IMG/VR virus record: IMGVR_UViG_3300006947_000106
Coordinates: 1 to 21,150 of that record
Reading direction: 5' to 3' (one strand)
From: a virus
DNA length: 21,150 bases
Translations under genes and position numbers: made by a program
Shown here: positions 9,457-21,150 of the stretch, one piece after another
How the letters are laid out: each line of letters opens with the position of its first letter
Numbering within the stretch: the stretch's first letter is position 1
Notes under the pieces: generated by a model
Databases searched by the model: none
Told to the model about the DNA's origin: nothing
The model's input: the letters and a program-made list of their open reading frames with translations, nothing else

Positions 9457-9493
9457 CTCCCTGTTCGTTTCCGAGGCGGCAGGGAGTTTTTTT
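9457..9493 (+). terminator. Rho-independent terminator ending the early operon
   Basis: CTCCCTG at 9457-9463 pairs with CAGGGAG at 9480-9486, followed by seven T at 9487-9493. The loop contains a secondary CCG/CGG pair (CCGAGGCGG). The T-run overlaps the stop codon of the convergent 2068-residue gene. On the - strand no U-run follows the stem, so it works mainly for + strand transcripts. Confidence 0.93.
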
Positions 9494-12400
9494 AATCGAA
9501 AAAGCCCATACTATAATTTTTCCGTTCCTCCTCTAAAACTCTTTTCATCATAGGACTAATCGTAGTTCCGTTGTGCATCTTAGCCGTTGTCCTTTGGTGT
9601 CCGTTGTAAGACCGCTTCAAAGAGTCATAGTTTATCGCGGCAGTTGGATGTTCCTTACCGAACGCCATCATTTCTTTGAAAACCGCAGCACCCTCAGGGT
9701 AATCCCCATCCCTACGAGCTTGATAGTATCTCTTCATTAACTTAGATCGTTCTTTAGTAACTGCTCCGCTAATACGTTGCTCTACGTTAGTTTGTTCTTG
9801 AGCAAACGTGTACCCTGCTGGAGGAAACCCGATCATACCTGCAAAGAAATCTCCGGCAGTAACATCATCGTATATTACATCTCCACGCCTAGTCCGCATA
9901 CCATCTTCTTTTTGGAAACGACCTATAGGGCTGTTCCTTAAAATGTTTGTAAGTCCTGCGGGCAATGCACTTTCTATACCTCGCTCTACCTCGCCATCAG
10001 AGAAGTCTTTAACAGAACGAGCACCACGTAATATAGTACTGGCTGCGGGGCCACCAAAGTAATGAAAGAAAGACTCTTCTAGAGATGGGTCTTTAGAGTA
10101 TCTGTTAGCTTCAAACAAGAGGCTATTCAACCTAACACGTTTTGAGAAATCTACTCCTAGCGCGGCTACTGCTGGCCCTTTATACCAACCTTCTCCTAAG
10201 TACTTACGTACTACAGTGTCTGAATCATCCTCGTCATCGTCTAGGGTCAAGTCTATAGCGGCGGTCACTATTCCGTAAAGAGGCATACCTGCAACACCTG
10301 CTACTAAAAGAGAAGATAGTTGAACAGCACGCACCTGCGCCCATGCTATTTTCTTCTGCCGTAACCGCTCTTCTTTTTGGGGGGCTGTTTCGTTTTTAGG
10401 GGGGTAGAACTGAAGCTCTATCGCTCTCTTGCCTGTCTTGAACATAGTGGTATACATACGCAAACCGTAGTTCTTGTACATAAACGCAACGCGGCCAGCA
10501 CCTTGTGCAGATATTCTAGAGCCTGTCTCTAGTACCGCACCACCGTTGTATTCCATAGACTTATAAAGAGCATCTTCAGAAGCCGCTAGCTCCATTTCAG
10601 TGTTACTCTTACGAGCGTCTTTAGGCTTCTTAGCTTCTTTAGCCTGCATGTCCTCCAGAGATAACTTATAAGCAGCTAGAAGAGTTACCTGACGGTTAAA
10701 TCGCTCACCCGCATTGAACATTATCGCGGAGGTAGAAGATACGGTATTTAACCCCTTCTGGAAAGCATTGCCACGATCTATCCGTCCCGACTTCTCCTTC
10801 CCAAGTTTATCTTTTATAAACTCAAACGTACTAGTATTTTCGTCCAGCCCCATAGCATCTGATATGTACGACTGCGTTAGATACGATCTTTTTGAAGCCA
10901 TAGTAATCAAGGTAGTTAGTGGCCCGTACTCCGCAACTATCTTAGGGTCTAGCCCCTCTCTTAGTGTGTAGGTAACTTCACCAAAAGTTTTAGAATCAAC
11001 GTCATTATCTTGAGCTATGTCAAAGTAACTGTCTATGTTGTTACCAGAGCTTTTCACTAGAGACATAGCTTCCGTCATTACCTTGCCCGTCTTTATATGT
11101 CCGAATTCAGCGCCTAGCATAGGGCCAACAAACAAAGGTAACTGACTAAGGTTAACAAGTGCTGATGAAGCGTTAAAGCCAATAGTGTATATAAACGCTA
11201 CTTGGTTAATGTTCTTTACATAGCCTTCTATACTTTTGAGGTCTGCCCCACTGGTAGCAAACTTAGCGCGAGCTATTAGGTCATCTCCTATAGCAGTTGT
11301 AGTATTACTAGTAGAGTTGTTTATCGACAGGTCTTGTTGAACTGTTTTTATTTCTCCTTCTATTGTGCGTATACGACTGCTGTAATCTATCCGCTTAATC
11401 TGTCGCGCTAGATCAAAGGACTTTGCCCGCATAGAATGTATAGCATCGGGGATATAGCCATCATATCCGCCTCGATTCTTAAAGGACTTAGCAAAGGCAG
11501 TGCTTGGCAGTGAGTCGATAAACAAGTTCATTATCTCGTCTTGTACCTCTGAGTCTACACCTTTACTTTCTAACGCGTTAAGTATGTCCTTTACAAAATC
11601 TCCATCAGGGGCATTCTTTCTAAAGTTACTAGCAGATAAGTCTCCTTCTGATGTCTCTATTGTATTGGTCATGGCAAGACCTCCCGACTCAACCCTCTCT
11701 CTCGCCGCAAGCATTTCAGCTTTACTCTCAAACATCTCTACAACGTAGCTATCTCTGTCGGAAGTATTACTGTCTGTAGCTACAGGAGTATAAGTTAACT
11801 TAAACTTACCTTCACGCACTAACGGAAAATAAACGTCTAGCGTTTTTTTATCGAACATCTTAGAAAATATATTATTTTTTATGTCTAGAGCCTCTGATGA
11901 ACCCTCACCAAATACCTCGTCTACACGTTTTGTAATGACACGTTTTAACTGCTCATATTGAACTTTATACACATCACGTATTTCTTTGTACTGATTACGC
12001 CCTTGGTCAGAAAGAGAATCCCATTCTCGCTTTAGTTTTTTCCAACGAGCCAGTTTATCTGGATCTTTCCCATACCGAGCCGTAGCTTCTTGTGAAGTTA
12101 GCGTAGGGTCTATTTGATAGATTGTTGCACCATAACCTAACGTACCATCTGCCTTGTCTGACGAATATATTATGTCATCTATTTTCTTCTGCTCCGCAGG
12201 GTTAGCCATAGCCCATTTAGATGCTTTTTCTACCGCTGTATTTATTATTCTTTCCGCCGCATTCATAGCCCCGCGCATTTCTTGGAGAGTTGTGTGAAGT
12301 CTATCTCCTAAATCCCCATAGCCCTTTGCTTTGGCTACGTCACCAAGTGCCTGAGTATCCAGTAACCGCAAAGCTCCAATCCTAGTAGCTATGTCATTAG

Positions 12401-15400
12401 CACTGTCACCAAGGCCGTCAAACCATCTAGCGCCATCTTCGCCAAAATCTTTCCTAAACTTGGGAGTGGGGGCAGCGAACCCCTTCTGCACAAGCCCCAT
12501 ATCTTTAAGAAGTTTCTGCACCCCATCGCGGGTTGCCATTCCGTAGGTAGAACCTGCCCCACGAGTGTCAGGGGAAGTAGCTAGAATCGCCATTATATGT
12601 TGGTCAACCACGTCTAATGCAGAGCCTGTAGTCTTAGTTCCTGACCCAATCAAAGTACGTATAAGATTAGTAACATACCTAAAGAACTTGGATAGAGAAG
12701 ATATTTTCGAGCCATCAGGATTCATACCCGCTAGCTTTTGTTGGAAAGCGGAGTTGCTAAGTACTTCGGCGACAAACTCCTTTAGGTTCTGTGCGCCATA
12801 GGCAGAGTCTAGTTGTGGCTTTACTTCATTAAAGAGGGTTGTCATCTTTTTAGTAAACGGACTAGATGGATTGTCTAATGTTGTATCTATGACAGCATGA
12901 GTTGATTCATGCAGTAACGTGTGTATGCCTACCTCACCTTCGACTAGGTTAACTGTGCCGTCAGCAGACACACTAGAAGTAGTTCCTTTTACAAACTTGA
13001 TATTGGCATCACCTATTGCTTCTGATAAGACACGCGTTATCTGCTTAATACGAGGGTCGGTAGTCGCAACACTCAAAGCCATTAACGCACCACGCAAGTC
13101 ACCTTTAACAAGCAAGGCTTTAACGTCAGGAGGCACTACACCTTCGTACCAGTTTACCGCAGCGTTAGGTAATTGAGAGTCATTATTGAGGTCTAAGCCT
13201 TGTCCTATATCCGCGATTTTGGTTTCTAAAGCCGCTACTGCTTTAGCGTCACCTATACCTGCCTCGACTTTGGCAGCTTCTTCCAACTGCTCGCGAGCTT
13301 CTTTGGTATTAGCTAGCTTAGCATCTTTTATTTTTTTATCTAAGCTAGCTTGCCTTTCATCTCTTGCTATAGCTGCTGTACCATCGTCAAGATCAGTGGT
13401 TATTGCACTATCGTCAACCACAGGTGTCGTATACTTATCTATGTACCCTTTAGTTTGTGGAGGCAATTTCGCAGGACTTTTATTCCTACCGAAGCTTGCC
13501 TTCATAGTCTTCGCTAACTCACCATTCGTTATCGATTCAGGAGCATTTTCGCCAAATTTTTCTATTAATACATCCCCGATAGGTTCGTACTTGCCTGTAA
13601 GCCCTAGACTAAGTACAAATGATTTATCGACTAGTACTACTGCGTCAGGGGACTCGACTCTAGTCCCCCCTTCGGGTGTAACAACAGGTTCGACTGAGGT
13701 TGGGGTTAGGATCTTATTTGCAGTGGCTTGTGCATCTATAGCAGCTCTATCTGCTCGACCCATAGGGGTGTTTGTATTTGTCCCAGAAGGGAGGTCTGGG
13801 TCTACACTAACGTTTGCAGGTGGTTTACCTGCTGCTAAAGCCCTCTTTTGCGCCTCGTCCGTCTCTTTTTTGTCCGCATCTACAGAGTTTACAAGTGGTT
13901 TACCTGCTTCCTTTCCGACAAGAGCCGCATTTTTTGCAGCTAACACGCGTTGCTCTTCGGCAAGAGCCGCATTTCTTTTTCTCCTTTGTTCAGCATTCGT
14001 TGTTGTCGCTAGTGAATTTCTTGGTTCCCCAGCCTCTATAGCAGCTAATTCTAATTCTTGAGCTTCTGTTAAGCTTTCTTTTTGTGTAATAGCTTCGGCA
14101 GGGGGTGGGGACACTTTGTCCATCACCTGTTTAACGGCATCGTTATAGGTCTGATCAGTGGCTATTATGTTGGTTATTTCTGTGGCTACGTTTATACCTA
14201 GCCCTTTTTTGTCCACAGCAAGCTGTATAGTCGCTACTTGTTCTTGTCTCGCTACTATATCTACTGGAGTAAGTTGTTCTCCTTTTCCGACAAAAGTATT
14301 TGTAGGGCCTTGTTTAGCACTGCCCACTCTTCCGCCGACAAATTCTTTAGCTCCGGTGGTAGCTTCTTCGGTTGTGCTGGGTGCTTGTGTAGCACCTGAA
14401 AGGCTACCTCCACCTCCTCCCTCGTCAACTTTTCCAACATTGGTTTCGTCTACTCCTCCAAGCTTCTCTTCAAATAAGCTACTAGTAGCATTTTCTTCAG
14501 CGGCTACTTCAGCGCCTACTTGTTGTTCATTGTTGAGGGGTACGTTTGCCTCGAAGGTGACAGTTCCTTCTTCGCCGAAGGGGATAGCGTCTGATTCAGC
14601 GGCTAGTCTTTTGGCTAAATCTCTAGCTCCCGCTTCATTCTTTTCAATGGCTTCACGTTGTCTAGTTTTTTCTCCGGTTACGGCATCTAAATCTGCTTCA
14701 GATACTTCTTTTTCAGTTGTAGTAGCACCGAGCCTTTCGGCTTCAACAATGGCTTTAGCAGCGGCTTCTAATTCGGCGGAAGCAGCGGTTCCTGCGCCAG
14801 TTCCTCCAGCAGTGCTAGCTTTACTACCTTTGCCACGAATTACGCCTGAAGATAGTACGTCTGCAAGGGCTTGTAGTATTGCACCTGCACCACCACCGAT
14901 TAGAGCTTCTTCTAGCACACCTGAATCGACTAACTCTTTCTCTGCGTTATAGCCTTGCTCGTTAAGGTTTTGAAGTATGGCGGCTGCACCTTCTTGTGCG
15001 CCTTCTGCTAGTCCAGTAACACCTGCATTACGCACGCGGCTAACAATACCGTCAATTGCTTTAGGGCCAAGCTTATCTAGTGTTGCCGTCAGCCCGGGAA
15101 GTTTGAATGCTTTGGACAGCCTACCAAGGGGGGTTAATTCTAAAGCTCCAATGAACGTACCTTTAACCGCAGCCATGCCGCGTTCATCTTCTGTAGCACC
15201 GTACGCACGCGCACGTTCACTTGCTTCACCAGCACCAGCACCAGCAGCGACAGCGCCTGCTAAAGGTAAGGCAGCAGCGCCAGTAAAAGCAGCGGGGGCT
15301 AATGCCGCAATAGAGCCAATGCCCGCAGATAATTTAAACGCTACTGAGTCTTCGTCTGCGCCTTTGAGCATATCTATGTCAAAGAGATCTTGTATCTTAC

Positions 15401-15698
15401 TGCGAGCTTTAAGCTCCGCCTCTTCTTCTAGGATAGTAGCCATACCCAAAGCTGATGATTCCAACATACCTGCTATGCCAGAACCAAACCCTTTAAGTAT
15501 GTCCTCACCCATATTAGAATTAGAGGCGAATGTAAACCCTTGTTCTTCTAGAGTTGGAAGTCTTTCTTTACTTACACTTGACTGATCACGTTCTCTTAAT
15601 CTTTTTACTCCAGCAAGTACTTCTGGAGAATCAGGAGCTAGATTATCAGGAATATTAGTTAAAGTAAGTCCGTCTTTAGTAGTTACAGAGTACGGCAT
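9492..15698 (-). CDS. Giant virion/ejection-type protein (2068 aa) with HExxH zinc-protease motif and LPD38-like region
   Basis: This is a very large internal or ejection-type virion protein of the polyvalent kind. Residues about 60-280 are Gly/Ala-rich and weakly hydrophobic (GSGIAGMLESSALGM, AAFTGAAALPLAGAVAAGAG), suited to membrane contact. About 290-800 is low-complexity and rich in Ala, Glu, Lys and Thr. His930-Glu-Ser-Thr-His934 in LLHESTHAV, followed by KEFVAEVLSN (Glu974/Glu978), is a gluzincin-type zinc metallopeptidase signature. A helical region follows, with MFNAGERFNRQVTLLAAY from Met1660, resembling the LPD38 large-polyvalent-protein domain. A hydrophobic stretch near 1790-1815 (SSLLVAGVAGMPLYGIV) precedes an acidic LDDDEDD. 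The ATG has AGGA upstream and lies 14 nt after the 665-residue gene. Such proteins are usually packaged and enter the cell with the DNA; the protease target is unknown. Confidence 0.85.
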   Translation of the reverse strand: MPYSVTTKDGLTLTNIPDNLAPDSPEVLAGVKRLRERDQSSVSKERLPTLEEQGFTFASNSNMGEDILKGFGSGIAGMLESSALGMATILEEEAELKARSKIQDLFDIDMLKGADEDSVAFKLSAGIGSIAALAPAAFTGAAALPLAGAVAAGAGAGEASERARAYGATEDERGMAAVKGTFIGALELTPLGRLSKAFKLPGLTATLDKLGPKAIDGIVSRVRNAGVTGLAEGAQEGAAAILQNLNEQGYNAEKELVDSGVLEEALIGGGAGAILQALADVLSSGVIRGKGSKASTAGGTGAGTAASAELEAAAKAIVEAERLGATTTEKEVSEADLDAVTGEKTRQREAIEKNEAGARDLAKRLAAESDAIPFGEEGTVTFEANVPLNNEQQVGAEVAAEENATSSLFEEKLGGVDETNVGKVDEGGGGGSLSGATQAPSTTEEATTGAKEFVGGRVGSAKQGPTNTFVGKGEQLTPVDIVARQEQVATIQLAVDKKGLGINVATEITNIIATDQTYNDAVKQVMDKVSPPPAEAITQKESLTEAQELELAAIEAGEPRNSLATTTNAEQRRKRNAALAEEQRVLAAKNAALVGKEAGKPLVNSVDADKKETDEAQKRALAAGKPPANVSVDPDLPSGTNTNTPMGRADRAAIDAQATANKILTPTSVEPVVTPEGGTRVESPDAVVLVDKSFVLSLGLTGKYEPIGDVLIEKFGENAPESITNGELAKTMKASFGRNKSPAKLPPQTKGYIDKYTTPVVDDSAITTDLDDGTAAIARDERQASLDKKIKDAKLANTKEAREQLEEAAKVEAGIGDAKAVAALETKIADIGQGLDLNNDSQLPNAAVNWYEGVVPPDVKALLVKGDLRGALMALSVATTDPRIKQITRVLSEAIGDANIKFVKGTTSSVSADGTVNLVEGEVGIHTLLHESTHAVIDTTLDNPSSPFTKKMTTLFNEVKPQLDSAYGAQNLKEFVAEVLSNSAFQQKLAGMNPDGSKISSLSKFFRYVTNLIRTLIGSGTKTTGSALDVVDQHIMAILATSPDTRGAGSTYGMATRDGVQKLLKDMGLVQKGFAAPTPKFRKDFGEDGARWFDGLGDSANDIATRIGALRLLDTQALGDVAKAKGYGDLGDRLHTTLQEMRGAMNAAERIINTAVEKASKWAMANPAEQKKIDDIIYSSDKADGTLGYGATIYQIDPTLTSQEATARYGKDPDKLARWKKLKREWDSLSDQGRNQYKEIRDVYKVQYEQLKRVITKRVDEVFGEGSSEALDIKNNIFSKMFDKKTLDVYFPLVREGKFKLTYTPVATDSNTSDRDSYVVEMFESKAEMLAARERVESGGLAMTNTIETSEGDLSASNFRKNAPDGDFVKDILNALESKGVDSEVQDEIMNLFIDSLPSTAFAKSFKNRGGYDGYIPDAIHSMRAKSFDLARQIKRIDYSSRIRTIEGEIKTVQQDLSINNSTSNTTTAIGDDLIARAKFATSGADLKSIEGYVKNINQVAFIYTIGFNASSALVNLSQLPLFVGPMLGAEFGHIKTGKVMTEAMSLVKSSGNNIDSYFDIAQDNDVDSKTFGEVTYTLREGLDPKIVAEYGPLTTLITMASKRSYLTQSYISDAMGLDENTSTFEFIKDKLGKEKSGRIDRGNAFQKGLNTVSSTSAIMFNAGERFNRQVTLLAAYKLSLEDMQAKEAKKPKDARKSNTEMELAASEDALYKSMEYNGGAVLETGSRISAQGAGRVAFMYKNYGLRMYTTMFKTGKRAIELQFYPPKNETAPQKEERLRQKKIAWAQVRAVQLSSLLVAGVAGMPLYGIVTAAIDLTLDDDEDDSDTVVRKYLGEGWYKGPAVAALGVDFSKRVRLNSLLFEANRYSKDPSLEESFFHYFGGPAASTILRGARSVKDFSDGEVERGIESALPAGLTNILRNSPIGRFQKEDGMRTRRGDVIYDDVTAGDFFAGMIGFPPAGYTFAQEQTNVEQRISGAVTKERSKLMKRYYQARRDGDYPEGAAVFKEMMAFGKEHPTAAINYDSLKRSYNGHQRTTAKMHNGTTISPMMKRVLEEERKNYSMGFFD

Positions 15699-15712: not shown

Positions 15713-17710
15713 TTAAATATCGTTATATCCAGCTAACTTTTTAATTTCTTTTTCTAACTCACCATATGTTTTATTGCCATCTTGCATTCTAGATAGAAAA
15801 CCTTGATATCTAATAAACATATTTTTCTCATCTTCAGAGAAATCAACATCTTTACCTTGAGCCATTGCATCTATTGCTTTTTGCTGGAGAGCTGGCCCTG
15901 CTGTGTAAGCAGGTAGCATAGCAATAGATTCTTGGTAGGATGTGTTCATTTTTTCTTGTAATGTAAGGAGATCACCAAGTATTGTTGCTTTATTAGTATT
16001 TTCTAGTATATCCGCTTTTCTCTGGCTAAATTCAGCATCAAGCACTTTTTGATCGCGATCATTTCCTTCCTTCCATGTCTCAAATGCTATTTGACCTTCC
16101 CTATTTTTTTCTAATAAGTTTTGTTTAGTTACATCCTTTAAAGCATTGGCAGCGGCTGACTTATCCGCAGTGAGGGACGCGTATACTTGCCTTGCATTAG
16201 CCTCACCAATTTTAGAAACATCAATGTCTTTTGCTATTTTTTCGTTAGTAAGTCTGTTTACTTCTTTTATTTGGTTTCCTTCAAAAGTTGCAACTTGAGC
16301 GTCAGCTTGTTGACCAGCCATTGCTGCGCCAAGCAGACCTCGCTGCCCACCCCCTATTAGGTTTGCCATTAACCTGTCTTTCTGTAATTTCTTAGGGTCA
16401 AGTTGGCGATCCTGAAATGCTTTTTGTGTGGCTATACCCTTTTTAAGTTCATCTCTATTTTCAACTCGTCGAGTATAAGTATCTGACTCCGCTCTAGCGT
16501 CTTTCTGCTCGTCGCTTATGCTTACGTTAGCGCGGTCTTTGAAGCTTTGTAATTGTCCTTCAGGCATAGATTGCTCAAACAAATTACCAGCTATGCCAGT
16601 CCTATCTGGCGCTGTTCTATCTGCTATTTCTTGTGTACCATCTGAGTAGTCAGTGTCATCGGGGGTAACTGTAAGTTCTTCTTCTCCTTCTTCTTCTTCT
16701 GCTACTACTACTGCTGGTGCTACTGCTGGTACTGGTGCATCTTCACCACTAAGCGCACCTATACCTGTACTTACTGCGCCAAGACCAAGACCAAGACCAC
16801 CAATCCTCCCTGTAGAAATTTCTCTTCCTACGGGTTTGGGTAATGCTGAAAACTCAAGTCCGTCTTCAGTAGTTTTAACTTTATTAGGTTTAGGTCTAGT
16901 AACCAGTTTCTGCAATGCTTCAGGAGTTTTCTTAGCGACCTCAACTCCTTTCTTTAATTTCTGGGCGTAGTTTACTTTCTTAGCTGCGCTGTACGCTTTC
17001 ATTCCCAAAGATGCAGCCTTTAACGCCAGAGAACCTGTCCATCCTACAATAGGGACAAACATCATACCAGCAGCAACGGCATCTAAAGGATTTTCCGTAG
17101 CCCAATCTACTACACTACCTGCTACTTTTTCAAAACCTGAAGGCACTTCTTCGGCTACTGCTTCAGCAGGCAACTCAGCCCCTGATGATGGGGCAGCAGA
17201 GTGAGGGTGGTCATGTCCTACTGGGCCACCACCGTCATATCCAATAATCCCACCTTGAGCCATACCTTGCATGTTAGGGCGAGGCAGAGGTAAAAGACCA
17301 CCGCTAGCAGCCATCATAGGATTGCCACCTGAAGCAGTACGTTGCATGTTCTTTGTTTGCTGTTGTTGGCGTTGTCCTAAAATACCAGAAGACTGTTTAG
17401 CCATCTCATTCTTATCCATAGCTAGAACTTCTTGTTCACGCTGCGCCAGTATAGTGGCAGGGTTTTGTTGCTCCCCTAATAGCAGTTCCTGTGCAGCGGA
17501 TTCTTTAGCGGACTTAACTTTTTGGAGGGCGAGCAAATCTAGCAGTTGAGGGTTTTGAGCTAGGCGTTTTTCTAATACTTGAGGGTTATTTCTGTACGCT
17601 TCTACCTTAGTATCTATAGCCTGCGCCATACCACCTAAACTAGCATCTGCGCTATTACCCTGAGTATTGGTCAAAGCGTCCATAATCCCGCCAGATTGTT
17701 GTTGTGCCAT
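15713..17710 (-). CDS. Virion protein with AxGG motifs, hydrophobic segment and coiled coils (665 aa)
   Basis: It is probably a structural or ejection protein by composition and position. The N-terminus (MAQQQSGGIMDAL) and residues 100-165 are Gln/Gly/Met-rich, with ASGGLLPLP and MAQGGIIGYDGGG, motifs shared with the next two upstream proteins, followed by a His-rich patch (GHDHPHS). Residues about 200-245 contain a hydrophobic segment (MMFVPIVGWTGSLALKAASLG) leading into a basic helix, a possible membrane-active element. An acidic stretch EEEEGEEEL lies near 340. From about 400 to the end it is charged and helical (coiled-coil-like). AGGAG sits 6 nt before the ATG. It lies 38 nt downstream of the 695-residue gene and 14 nt upstream of the 2068-residue gene, so the three form one operon. 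The exact role is unassigned. Confidence 0.8.
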   Translation of the reverse strand: MAQQQSGGIMDALTNTQGNSADASLGGMAQAIDTKVEAYRNNPQVLEKRLAQNPQLLDLLALQKVKSAKESAAQELLLGEQQNPATILAQREQEVLAMDKNEMAKQSSGILGQRQQQQTKNMQRTASGGNPMMAASGGLLPLPRPNMQGMAQGGIIGYDGGGPVGHDHPHSAAPSSGAELPAEAVAEEVPSGFEKVAGSVVDWATENPLDAVAAGMMFVPIVGWTGSLALKAASLGMKAYSAAKKVNYAQKLKKGVEVAKKTPEALQKLVTRPKPNKVKTTEDGLEFSALPKPVGREISTGRIGGLGLGLGAVSTGIGALSGEDAPVPAVAPAVVVAEEEEGEEELTVTPDDTDYSDGTQEIADRTAPDRTGIAGNLFEQSMPEGQLQSFKDRANVSISDEQKDARAESDTYTRRVENRDELKKGIATQKAFQDRQLDPKKLQKDRLMANLIGGGQRGLLGAAMAGQQADAQVATFEGNQIKEVNRLTNEKIAKDIDVSKIGEANARQVYASLTADKSAAANALKDVTKQNLLEKNREGQIAFETWKEGNDRDQKVLDAEFSQRKADILENTNKATILGDLLTLQEKMNTSYQESIAMLPAYTAGPALQQKAIDAMAQGKDVDFSEDEKNMFIRYQGFLSRMQDGNKTYGELEKEIKKLAGYNDI

Positions 17711-17748
17711 CTCTGTCTCCTAAAACTTTAAATTTGTTATGGGTACTT

Positions 17749-19836
17749 TTAGTAGTCGTCTGGAATACTGTCTAGTTCAGCTTGCGTCTCGGCGGGAGTT
17801 ACTGTCCCTGCTAGTATTTCAGCGGGGGTAAGCCCCATAGAGGCACCTGTTTGTGCGGTAGTAGGGCCAGAAGAGCCGTACAAAGACTCCATAATATCTT
17901 TAATTCCCGCAGTGCTGCCCAAAAGGTTTTGCATGTCACTAGGCTGAGAGTAAGAATAAGACTGAGCTTCCAATGGCAAGCCTTGCAGTAACGATTGCAT
18001 GTACTGTACCTGCTTGTAAGGAAAGTCTCTTTCTTCCTCAAACTGTGCCTTGTCTGCACTAAGCCCTTGCTGCTCTATACCTCGTTGGGTAGCGCCAGCA
18101 GCGCCATACCCTCCAAGCACGTCAAACCCATACTGATTGGCTGTGTTCTGAGCTGCCATTTCACGATTTTGTTGGGTATTAAACTGTTGCTGCGCCCTAT
18201 CATATGCAGATGCGTAGCCTTTACCTGTTATATTTGCTAGGTTAGTCTCTAGGTTACGTTGGTTTTCCATGTCCATAAGAGCCTGACGAGAACCACCAAA
18301 TGCACCTGCTTGCGTCATACGCCCTGCATTACCTACACGGCTTATTTCTGACTGGCGACGAGCTTCATCTAATTGAGGATTAAGAGAAGCCATTAAGTAA
18401 GGGTTCATACCCGCTGTGGCTTGCTCTGCGTCAAAAGTTTTAGGAGTAAAAGCGCCCATAGTAGTAGGAGTCTTTAACGCACCAATACCTTCAAACGACT
18501 TATTTTGTAAATCACTAGTCTCCGCAGTAAGAGGGCCACCAAAACCTTGAAATCCTTGGTCACCTAATGCAGCACCTCTACCTAGCATATCAGTCACATA
18601 CGGCCCTGCCCAACTAGATAGCGAGGATTCTTGCCCAGTTTGTTTTCCTACAGTAGGATCAGTCCCTACATTAGTAATAGGAGTAGAAGTACCACCACCC
18701 ACGTTAAACTTACGTACTGGGCCACCGTAGTTGTATGCGTTAGCAATGCCGCCTTGAGCCATAGTAGGCATAAACTTGTTAGGGTCTATTTGTTTACCTT
18801 GCTCTGAGTTTCCAGTACGTTCTTTACGTACGTTATCCATCATACCGTGCAACTGGTTAGCCCCTGCATCAGAGTTACCGTTACCTAGGTGACTGACTAC
18901 ATCCGCAGGAATAACAAACTCACCATCACTAAGACGCGCTTCTTGAGTGCCATCAATAGTTGCGGGTATTTCGTCAGCCATGCCATCAGTCTTACCACCT
19001 AAGTAGTAGCCGTTTTTTACAGAGGCGATACCGCCCATAGCCATAGCTTGAGGTGGGGGGGCCATTCCAACAGGGGGAGGAGTAGTAGGCGGCTGGTTTG
19101 GCCCTGAACTAGTAAACTCGTCACGATCATCTATGCCATTGCGGTTTGCGTCTTGCATATCGAAACTTCTATACATAGGCGGAGCATCTTCCGCAGGGGG
19201 CGGAGTTGAAAGATAACCTCCTATAAGCGGAATTGAGGGAATACCTCCTGTAGGATCAACTGCGCCATCAATTAAATCTTTAACATTATACGGCTGGTTT
19301 GGCCCTGAACTAGTAGACCCGTCATTATTTACAAATACACTCCCGCCAAATGGGCCTAAATCTACATAACTACCACCACCACCAGCATCTTCCGCAGGGG
19401 GCGGAATTGAGGGAATACCTCCTACAGGAGCATTTTCCGCAGTAGGCGGAGGCGGAGGCGGAGGCGGAGGCGCAGCATTAGGATCATTTTGCTGGGCTAA
19501 CATATTGCGTTGAGCAGCAGCAATCCCCTGCGCCTCTTCCATAGTAGGTGCTTTCTTGTCTTCAGGGCTAGTCGCATACTGCATGTCGGTAAAGTATCGT
19601 TGGTTCTGCCCACCAGCACGCCGATTAGGGTCAGTAGGTACTCTTTCTCGCACGGCTTCGTACTCAGGTATACCGCCTTGGTAACCTACCATAGGTACAT
19701 TAGCACTATTAGCGCCGGATTTATTTACTCCGTATCCAATTGCCCCTTGTAGCAAAGTATCAATCCCAGTACTGCCTGTAGTACCTGTAGTAGTGAAATC
19801 AACTGCGCCATCAATTAAATCTTTCCACCAACTCAT
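17749..19836 (-). CDS. Marine-phage-type virion protein with duplicated Pro-rich modules (695 aa)
   Basis: The C-terminal half (NPQLDEARRQSEISR, TQAGAFGGSRQALMD, then ASAYDRAQQQFNTQQ) and the middle block GGKTDGMADEIPATIDG...SDGEFVIPADVVSHLG (about residues 278-320) match patterns that I recall from tail or internal proteins of marine podoviruses. Residues 45-75 carry GYQGGIPEYEAVRE. AMGGIASVKNG and AQGGIANAY flank the central block. A nine-proline run lies near 122-130, and DANRNGIDDRDE (about 230-241) looks like a degenerate EF-hand loop. KDLIDGAVD occurs at residues 5-13 and again at 186-194, and GGIPSIP, PPPAEDA and TSSGPNQP also recur. The ATG overlaps the upstream stop (TAATG), with AGGAGA about 7 nt before it. 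The precise virion location is not known. Confidence 0.82.
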   Translation of the reverse strand: MSWWKDLIDGAVDFTTTGTTGSTGIDTLLQGAIGYGVNKSGANSANVPMVGYQGGIPEYEAVRERVPTDPNRRAGGQNQRYFTDMQYATSPEDKKAPTMEEAQGIAAAQRNMLAQQNDPNAAPPPPPPPPPTAENAPVGGIPSIPPPAEDAGGGGSYVDLGPFGGSVFVNNDGSTSSGPNQPYNVKDLIDGAVDPTGGIPSIPLIGGYLSTPPPAEDAPPMYRSFDMQDANRNGIDDRDEFTSSGPNQPPTTPPPVGMAPPPQAMAMGGIASVKNGYYLGGKTDGMADEIPATIDGTQEARLSDGEFVIPADVVSHLGNGNSDAGANQLHGMMDNVRKERTGNSEQGKQIDPNKFMPTMAQGGIANAYNYGGPVRKFNVGGGTSTPITNVGTDPTVGKQTGQESSLSSWAGPYVTDMLGRGAALGDQGFQGFGGPLTAETSDLQNKSFEGIGALKTPTTMGAFTPKTFDAEQATAGMNPYLMASLNPQLDEARRQSEISRVGNAGRMTQAGAFGGSRQALMDMENQRNLETNLANITGKGYASAYDRAQQQFNTQQNREMAAQNTANQYGFDVLGGYGAAGATQRGIEQQGLSADKAQFEEERDFPYKQVQYMQSLLQGLPLEAQSYSYSQPSDMQNLLGSTAGIKDIMESLYGSSGPTTAQTGASMGLTPAEILAGTVTPAETQAELDSIPDDY
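19090..19424 (-). repeat. Diverged tandem duplication inside the 695-aa virion gene
   Basis: A 25-bp identity at 19090-19114 and 19291-19315 and a 22-bp identity at 19183-19204 and 19384-19405 share the same 201-bp offset. A 19-bp identity at 19231-19249 and 19405-19423 is offset by 174 bp, so one copy differs by a 27-bp insertion or deletion. In protein terms, a module of GGIPSIP, PPPAEDA and TSSGPNQP is present twice. Confidence 0.85.
19255..19281 (-). repeat. 27-bp internal copy of the gene's own 5' end
   Basis: These 27 bp are identical to 19798-19824, near the start of the same gene, and encode KDLIDGAVD in both places in the same frame. The second copy lies between the two Pro-rich modules, as if the N-terminal peptide had been reused as a linker during the duplication. 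Confidence 0.9.
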
Positions 19837-21150
19837 TAGTTCTCTCCTAATAGTTTAAGTAGTAAGTCGTTCCTGTCTAGCAAACCGCCTTGCGCTACTT
19901 TTCTTACATTATTTTGATTACTAGGTAACCCATTATTAGGGGGTATCATACCTTTATTACCAAGGTCAACTGCATTGGTATTATCATACGGCATTTTAGG
20001 GCCAGATAAAACCATTTGCTGGCTCATTAAATTAGTTACAAAATCAATATCTGCTTCTGTAACTAATTTTGGTGGTTTACCTATAATATCTCCTACCACC
20101 TCTGTTTCACTTTTGTTGCGTAACATACCTCCAGAAGCTTTCTTTAAAGGTTGCCTTCCTCTAGATTGTACTGGAGCATTATCGTAAGGACTTGCATAAA
20201 AAGCGTCTTGCTTTGGATTAGCAAATATAGAGTTAAAGTCATATAAGTAGTCTATCTTCGCTAACTCAGTGTCTTTCGGCTTAGAGGTAACTGTGTTTTG
20301 TGCAGTAGAAGGCATAAATCCAATGCCACTACCCTTGCCGTCACCATCACCATCACCATCACCATCACCATCGCCATCGCCATCTCCACTACCGCTACCA
20401 TCTCCAGTACCATCTCCAGTACCATCTCCAGTACCAGTACCACTACCGTCACCGTCACCGCTACCTTCTCCAGTACCATCAGTACCAGTACCAGTATTTC
20501 CAGTACCTGTATCGCCCGCTCCAGTACCTGCATCCGCACCGCCCGTAGTATCACCAGTACCTGCATCAGTACTGCCGCCCGCATCGCCCGCACTACCTGC
20601 ATCGGCATCGCCTGTATCACCCGTACCAGTGTCCCCAGTGCCAGTATCAGCAACAGGCTCAGTTACCGTATCGCTAGGTGGAGTCTCAGTAGGTGGAGTC
20701 TCAGTAGGTGGAGTCTCAGTAGGTGGAGTCTCAGTAGGATCAATAACAGGATCAATAACAGGATCAATAACAGGATCAATAACAGGATCAATAACAGGAT
20801 CAGTGACAGGATCAATAACAGGATCAGTGACAGGATCAATAACAGGATCAGTGACAGGATCAGTGACAGGATCAATAACAGGATCAATAACAGGATCAGT
20901 GACAGGATCAGTGACAGGATCAATAACAGGATCAATAACAGGATCAATAACAGGATCAGTGACAGGATCAATAACAGGATCAATAACAGGATCAGTGACA
21001 GGATCAGTGACAGGATCAGTGACAGGGTCAACAGGATCAGTAACAGGGTCAACAGGATCAGTGACAGGGTCAACAGGATCAGTAACAGGATCAGTAACAG
21101 GATCAGTAACAGGATCAGTAACAGGATCAACAGGATCAGTAACAGGATCA
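19836..21150 (-). CDS. Virion-type protein with long DPV(T/I) and Gly-Asp tandem repeats (5' end outside window)
   Basis: One - strand frame is open from the right edge to the stop at 19836-19838, at least 437 residues. The order is: DPV plus Thr/Ile tetrapeptide repeats (nt 20737-21150), four ETPPT repeats, a Thr/Gly/Asp/Ala-rich segment, (DG)n near nt 20340-20384, then a C-terminal domain starting KGSGIGFMPST. That domain has YLYDFNSIFANPKQDAFYASPY, KKASGGMLRN and VAQGGLLDRNDLLLKLL, which resemble other marine phage virion proteins. The ATG at 20313-20315 is internal, because the frame continues in register upstream. The repeats would make a long, acidic, extended spacer. The stop overlaps the ATG of the 695-residue gene. 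A structural or adsorption-related spacer protein is likely; the N-terminal domain is not visible. Confidence 0.8.
   Translation of the reverse strand, partial: DPVTDPVDPVTDPVTDPVTDPVTDPVDPVTDPVDPVTDPVDPVTDPVTDPVTDPVIDPVIDPVTDPVIDPVIDPVIDPVTDPVTDPVIDPVIDPVTDPVTDPVIDPVTDPVIDPVTDPVIDPVIDPVIDPVIDPVIDPTETPPTETPPTETPPTETPPSDTVTEPVADTGTGDTGTGDTGDADAGSAGDAGGSTDAGTGDTTGGADAGTGAGDTGTGNTGTGTDGTGEGSGDGDGSGTGTGDGTGDGTGDGSGSGDGDGDGDGDGDGDGDGKGSGIGFMPSTAQNTVTSKPKDTELAKIDYLYDFNSIFANPKQDAFYASPYDNAPVQSRGRQPLKKASGGMLRNKSETEVVGDIIGKPPKLVTEADIDFVTNLMSQQMVLSGPKMPYDNTNAVDLGNKGMIPPNNGLPSNQNNVRKVAQGGLLDRNDLLLKLLGEN
20340..20384 (-). repeat. 6-bp coding repeat encoding (Asp-Gly)n
   Basis: Repeated ATCACC/ATCGCC hexamers on the + strand read as alternating Asp-Gly on the - strand. 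Similar Gly-Asp/Gly-Thr alternation extends less regularly to about 20640. Confidence 0.9.
20676..20735 (-). repeat. Four tandem 15-bp units encoding ETPPT
   Basis: Four identical units (AGGTGGAGTCTCAGT on the + strand) occupy exactly 60 bp, in frame within the repeat protein, between the DPV array and the Gly/Thr/Asp-rich part. Confidence 0.95.
20737..21150 (-). repeat. Tandem 12-bp coding repeat (DPVT/DPVI), continuing past the window
   Basis: From 20737 to 21024 there are 24 consecutive 12-bp units, each GGATCA plus either ATAACA or GTGACA (Asp-Pro-Val preceded by Ile or Thr on the - strand). From 21025 the array changes to GGATCAGTAACA units mixed with 9-bp units (GGGTCAACA, GGATCAACA). 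All units are multiples of 3, so the frame never breaks. Every 12-bp unit contains a GATC. Confidence 0.97.

Follow-up and report, generated by a model that had tools for sequence, protein, structure and literature searches.

Among described systems, those closest to the one reported here include the internal, ejected proteins gp7, gp20 and gp16 of phage P22, of which gp7 and gp20 bind the procapsid through defined segments (PMC8402733), and the internal proteins of phage T4 and DarB of phage P1, whose capsid targeting sequences are short peptides that direct internal proteins into the head, a 30-residue peptide being enough to target a reporter into the P1 capsid (PMC9024508). Here we describe a short peptide motif, AxGG, in the late proteins of a phage represented by the linear IMG/VR virus record IMGVR_UViG_3300006947_000106; the stretch analyzed (the window) covers all 21,150 bases of that record. 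The consensus form is Met-Ala-any-Gly-Gly-Ile and the wider form is [M/F/Y]-A-x-G-G-[I/V/L/Q/K]. The motif is common to non-homologous late proteins, namely A, B and C, which are neighbors in the window, and a group of small Lys/Gly-rich proteins in relatives, and probably serves virion-packed proteins as a common signal for either docking or cutting.

The plus strand of the window carries replication genes (part of a family A DNA polymerase, an SNF2-type helicase and a DUF927/primase-like protein), and convergent with these on the minus strand are four late genes. Protein A (19836–21149) is a long repeat protein of which the C-terminal 437 residues are present, the remainder being cut off by the contig end; B (695 residues; 17749–19836) is a fusion of a tape-measure-like domain (B1) and a DNA ejection protein (B2); C (665 residues; 15713–17710) is a coiled-coil protein; and D (2068 residues; 9492–15698) is a polyvalent protein. 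The position of this cluster, which is similar to that of the P22 genes, and the families represented in it suggest that its products are internal and ejected, as are P22 gp7, gp20 and gp16, and we infer that A, B and C are inside the virion. There are further likenesses, in that B2 falls in the DNA ejection family PHROG 4287 and P22 gp7 is processed beside a GG-rich stretch. The P22 proteins differ in belonging to PHROGs 598, 917 and 770, no homology to them was found, and P22 gp7 lacks AxGG[I/V]. There is also a departure from P1 DarB, in which the signal is N-terminal (PMC9024508), whereas AxGG is internal or near the C-terminus and its targeting role is putative. The window has no match in Rfam, and no experimental data, including virion proteomics, on the virion proteins of this phage group were found in the literature searched.

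The motif is real and, judging from alignments of relatives, under selection, although it is smaller in extent than first reported. In C, it lies within PRPNMQGMAQGGIIGYDGGGPV (residues 143–164; 17219–17284, minus strand, as are all protein features below), in what is predicted to be a disordered Gly/Pro segment, which follows an N-terminal helical region and leads into a hydrophobic helix and then a long coiled coil. The 45 homologues of C have a mean column identity of 19% and there are just four invariant columns, one of which is the first motif Gly (G153); the second Gly (G154) is retained in 44, the Met in 41, and the Ala and the Ile in 40 each. The context in the homologues is PRPNM..MAQGGIVG(Y/F)..GG.V, such that conservation extends to both sides over about 20 residues. 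The exact string MAQGGI[VI]G[YF] occurs in 61 stretches across the whole of IMG/VR, 60 of which are C-family by BLAST, although some of these assignments are weak and the match includes the motif itself. Protein B has two copies, the first in MAMGGIASVKNGYYLGG (residues 265–281; 18994–19044), just before the highly conserved SDGEFV domain segment of B1 (18862–18990), with the Ala and both Gly residues present in all 18 fused homologues and the motif present also in split B1 proteins, and the second in MAQGGIANAYNYGGPV (residues 359–374; 18715–18762) at the B1/B2 junction. In A, the motif is in AQGGLLDRNDLLLKLLGEN (residues 419–437; 19839–19895), and in most A relatives, which are mostly 1000–2400 residues long, AxGG is similarly about 19 residues from the C-terminus, just ahead of a conserved helix ending LLR(I/L)IGE. 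In L002, a contig near-identical to the window, A is at least 1506 residues long.

An earlier note on this DNA, made from the sequence alone, had listed eight instances of a shared motif, and all eight strings are present, in three minus-strand open reading frames and inside the span reported for them. Four are conserved in relatives, these being MAMGGIASV and MAQGGIANA in B, MAQGGIIGY in C, and AQGGLLDR near the C-terminus of A. The other four are lineage-specific look-alikes as far as the homologue alignments indicate. YQGGIPEY in B (19660–19683) corresponds to a separate conserved element, YQGxIPEY (consensus YQGKIPEY), in which YQG is invariant and the second Gly is not conserved. The columns aligned with ASGGLLPL in C (within AASGGLLPLP, residues 134–143; 17282–17311) are mostly PQGLA, SGGIM (in SGGIMDA; 17675–17695) sits in the variable N-terminus of C, and ASGGMLRN in A (residues 338–345; 20115–20138) is at a position that is not conserved in the long protein. 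The note had passed over SLGGMA, VGGIPS and TGGIPS, which are further GG sites of these proteins. What it called the repeat protein is the C-terminal part of a longer one, as noted above. The note had described the regions concerned as disordered-looking; this holds for C, where the AlphaFold model has a predicted local distance difference test (pLDDT) score below 50 at residues 149–228, and the model of B (pLDDT 43) is too poor to be used. The C model is itself of low confidence (pLDDT 61, predicted template modeling score 0.29) and we used it for disorder and helix layout alone; a Foldseek search of it against viral models returned nothing reliable. Searches with C gave no convincing family in Pfam, PHROG or NCBIfam and coiled-coil noise only in the PDB, and those with B gave no match in PHROG or Pfam and nothing in the PDB.

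The occurrence of the motif is well above that expected from composition. Each of the three proteins has two matches to A-x-GG-[ILM], compared with 0.09, 0.12 and 0.01 expected from residue shuffles within each protein, although the associated p-values are optimistic because the pattern was derived from the same proteins, and the homologues provide the independent test; D and the primase-like protein (940 residues) have no sites. In ten near-complete relative genomes, the pattern [MFY]A.GG[ILVMKQRA] was observed 7 times in A (0.17 expected), 12 times in B (0.28), 7 times in C (0.15) and 7 times in small Lys/Gly-rich late proteins (0.12), with the qualification that the C and small-protein classes are partly defined by GG patterns, so that their counts lean upward and are partly circular, which is not so for A, B and D. 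There are none in D and B2, and the 3 in 590 other open reading frames represent background (2.7 expected), one of the three being in an A protein missed by the classifier. Frequencies therefore exceed those of Gly-rich composition; a match to that composition was part of the outcome that the earlier note had put forward as refuting it. All four GGN codons are used for the motif Gly residues, and because of this variation the constraint is seen to act on the protein and not on the DNA. The sequence comparisons thus show a peptide under protein-level selection that is concentrated in the cluster genes and the small Lys/Gly-rich late proteins and is located at module edges; a common function in the three proteins, as had been proposed, is supported by the selection on the peptide, the synonymous variation of its Gly codons and its concentration in these genes. 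The sequence (Y)A(K/R/N)GG recurs within the small proteins (e.g. L108:5211-5552 and L103:17106-17519, and those of other relatives), in which GYGxARGGKxCKM is often the C-terminal sequence.

Relatives of B are present on 80 IMG/VR contigs. The capsid protein of one B-bearing relative has 57–70% identity to those of Synechococcus phage MinM2, Planktothrix phage Pag-Yong1, Pelagibacter phages HTVC023P and HTVC027P, phage DSL-LC04, and Roseobacter phages CRP-901 and CRP-902. The likeness of a relative to the HTVC023P-type pelagiphages and CRP-901-type roseophages includes 57–66% capsid identity and a GroES gene in common, and tblastn searches of those isolates with A, B and C gave no match. A tblastn search of a phage collection with the window C found no relative, and a pattern search found one near-identical contig only. 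In the complete genome of DSL-LC04 the counterparts of the late proteins are annotated as a DNA transfer protein, two hypothetical proteins and a tail tape measure protein. Its B2 matches the DNA ejection family phrog_4287 (E-value 6.9e-9, residues 10–288 of 294); matches of other relatives are weaker, and the assignment of B2 in the window is seen through these relatives. The B1 module following motif 1 is recognizably similar to the C-terminal domain of tape measure proteins (SDxIPAxLSDGEFV; PHROGs 23013, 5448, 6090 and 25241), and the corresponding domains of DSL-LC04 and Caulobacter phage RW, which match tape measure PHROGs, also have A-x-GG just upstream (FANGGIASL and NMARGGYAV, respectively). 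The difference is that here the domain is in a short-tailed-phage cluster, and is often a separate protein of 210–380 residues or fused to an ejection protein.

The arrangement of B varies, one clan of relatives having B1 and B2 fused and another having them as separate genes. Both motifs are kept in all 18 fused B proteins, with a spacing of exactly 94 residues in 16 of them, whereas split B1 proteins lack the second. A split B1 ends ...IDPxxF(M/L)P(T/A/V), and the fused relatives start the second motif, MAQGGIA, at the very next residue. In a tree of the B2 domain the fused and split forms are separated by a single transition, excepting the very long DSL-LC04 branch, and because of this the association of motif 2 with the fused form counts as one event and not many; the length of the DSL-LC04 branch also prevents rooting of the direction of change. 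The split B2 at L075:10596-11561 starts MMYGNIQKFQGGG, a sequence similar to the latter half of the linker in fused proteins (YNYGGxIQKF), as though it were an intermediate. A separate fusion, of B2 to C, is present in L125 and has tandem motif copies, AAQGGLMKSYAAGGSVKGYAPGGIANL, at its junction. Two C proteins (L125:3744-7193 and L136:2053-4596) have a lysozyme/transglycosylase-like domain inserted beside motif copies; in the L125 fusion protein it is flanked by MAQGGIVGY and MAQGGVAHF, and in L136 a lysozyme-like stretch, judged by eye, directly follows the second copy.

For this motif, shared by late internal proteins that are encoded together in an aquatic phage group, the choice of function lies mainly between docking and cutting, both of which had been offered earlier; docking fits somewhat better, and cleavage retains one good argument, the location of the motif at a gene-fusion junction. 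Our tentative preference is for AxGG being a short linear element by which structural and internal proteins encoded in the late ejection cluster are docked or tethered. We infer both that it binds something and what that partner might be. Peptides on flexible segments at module boundaries would bind one shared partner during procapsid assembly, such as the scaffold, the inner capsid surface or the portal, or perhaps each other, and A, B and C would thereby be gathered and retained together until DNA ejection. This is favored over cleavage because of the tandem copies, as in L125, which suit avidity, and because the conservation on both sides of the motif in C is wider than a typical protease site. 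It is also favored because the A motif adjoins the conserved C-terminal helix, a typical location for a docking peptide, and the matches of B2 to phrog_4287 and of B1-type domains to tape measure proteins provide the context. A further reason is that the motif does not follow the rule for the adenovirus protease, the only Gly-Gly protease rule examined. Adenovirus also has a Gly-Gly core in several virion precursors, and the consensus for its protease needs Met, Ile or Leu four residues ahead of the cut. Of the 45 C proteins, 43 have Ala or Ser at that position, and all 18 B proteins have Ala there at motif 1; an adenovirus-type site was rejected.

Several observations weigh against docking. 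The proposal names no specific partner, D and B2 lack the motif although their family membership predicts packaging, and in the clade L034–L052 protein A has no AxGG but retains most of the C-terminal helix. Motif 2 of B is restricted to the fused form, a distribution that cleavage accounts for no less well, and the circularity of the C and small-protein counts noted above bears on the enrichment. An extension of the docking proposal, which we regard as speculative and rather doubtful, is that AxGG serves as a portable code for virion assembly, in which a ‘sticker’ peptide, repeated at module edges and fusion junctions, would bring several unrelated proteins to one acceptor inside the procapsid; this would differ from N-terminal head-targeting signals. 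Although the phages described here are related to one of the most common phage groups in the ocean, nearly all of their ejection proteins lack annotation, and a conserved peptide common to several of them is a marker of the cluster and a handle for locating it in uncultured phages. It also opens to direct test the question of whether unrelated internal proteins use a single signal to enter the head or share a single cutting site.

Maturation cleavage is possible, although we consider it somewhat unlikely. A protease, either the zincin of D or a host peptidase, would cut after Gly-Gly in virions; B1 and B2 would be split apart, the tape-measure-like domain released, and C and A trimmed. The position of motif 2, starting exactly where a split B1 stops, is what this predicts, as are the motif cluster at the B2-C junction and the lysozyme-like domain there bounded by two motifs, these being cases in which the motif lies between separable modules. 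The fused/split association is however a single transition, and the roughly 20 residues of conservation in C are more than is typical of a protease site. There is precedent in P22, where host OpdA cuts gp7 and leaves a Lys-Gly-Gly-Lys-Gly terminus (PMC8402733), and zincins of phage polyvalent proteins, which D resembles in having an HExxH...E domain and a place beside late genes, have been proposed as processors of virion polypeptides (PMC5512222). The HESTH site of D (12897–12911) is a genuine zincin site, with H934, E935 and H938 invariant and the downstream Glu, E982, present in at least 90% of 15 homologues, and it is retained alongside LPD39 and PLxRFG domains; D itself has no AxGG site, which is a difference from the polyvalent-protein case. 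The earlier suggestion that the HExxH protein is the processing enzyme was thus right about the site, but strict co-occurrence with the motif fails. In DSL-LC04, C contains MANGGIV and the tape-measure protein has the motif twice, and HExxH occurs only in one probably spurious 119-residue open reading frame. L143 has the motif, and its complete 1153-residue neighbor has no HExxH. The clade L034–L052 is the reverse case, in which HExxH is kept and AxGG is lost from A. An obligatory partnership is not supported on these grounds, and the link between the motif and the HExxH protein appears weak from gene content. A scan of head proteins from one relative revealed no recognizable protease family. 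Proteins weakly similar to D in other phages are annotated as DarB-like antirestriction proteins.

A simpler explanation is that AxGG is a flexible Gly-rich hinge, an ordinary linker between modules that must unfold and traverse the portal, without specific recognition. Its location at module edges and in low-confidence model regions, its Gly-rich neighbors and its presence in more than one fusion are all in keeping with this, but linkers rarely keep M-A-x-G-G-I over 45 sequences with 19% identity, and adjacent linker positions vary freely (column 163 of the C alignment has 0.65 bit, compared with the near-invariant Gly columns). Together with the enrichment above composition, this makes a hinge unlikely.

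Mimicry of the GroES mobile loop (GGIVL), by which the motif would recruit host GroEL, also addressed by the phage GroES, to fold large virion proteins, is very improbable. The phages do encode Cpn10 (Pfam PF00166), with loops such as KTKGGIVLAEE in distant members, C carries GGIV or GGII, and it has been proposed that GGIVL-like patches in substrates are what GroEL recognizes (PMC9720267). However, the pattern from that work, G_IVL, needs three consecutive hydrophobic residues, and C has IVG, B has IAS and A has QVE or LLD, so that no conserved site fits. The Cpn10/GroES mobile loop is GDSGIIKS or AGTSILKT in two relatives near the window (L091:10608-11027 and L108:10575-10985; G004 and G012), and is of the KTKGG(I/V/L) type in HTVC023P, DSL-LC04 and others.

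A nucleic-acid feature or chance is the least credible of the explanations: ATG followed by GG codons could encode GGAGG, but an internal Shine-Dalgarno sequence and start at ATG-GCN-CAR-GGN-GGN (encoding A-Q-G-G) is ruled out by the use of all Gly codons and the lack of GGAGG enrichment (it is present at 2 of 38 sites in C and at none of the 15 motif-2 sites in B or the 17 sites in A), and an origin in Gly-rich composition alone by the shuffle test and the ten-genome survey. Within A, window positions 20736–21150 contain a 12-nucleotide tandem array encoding (DPVT/DPVI)n, and the same stretch has long open frames in other frames.

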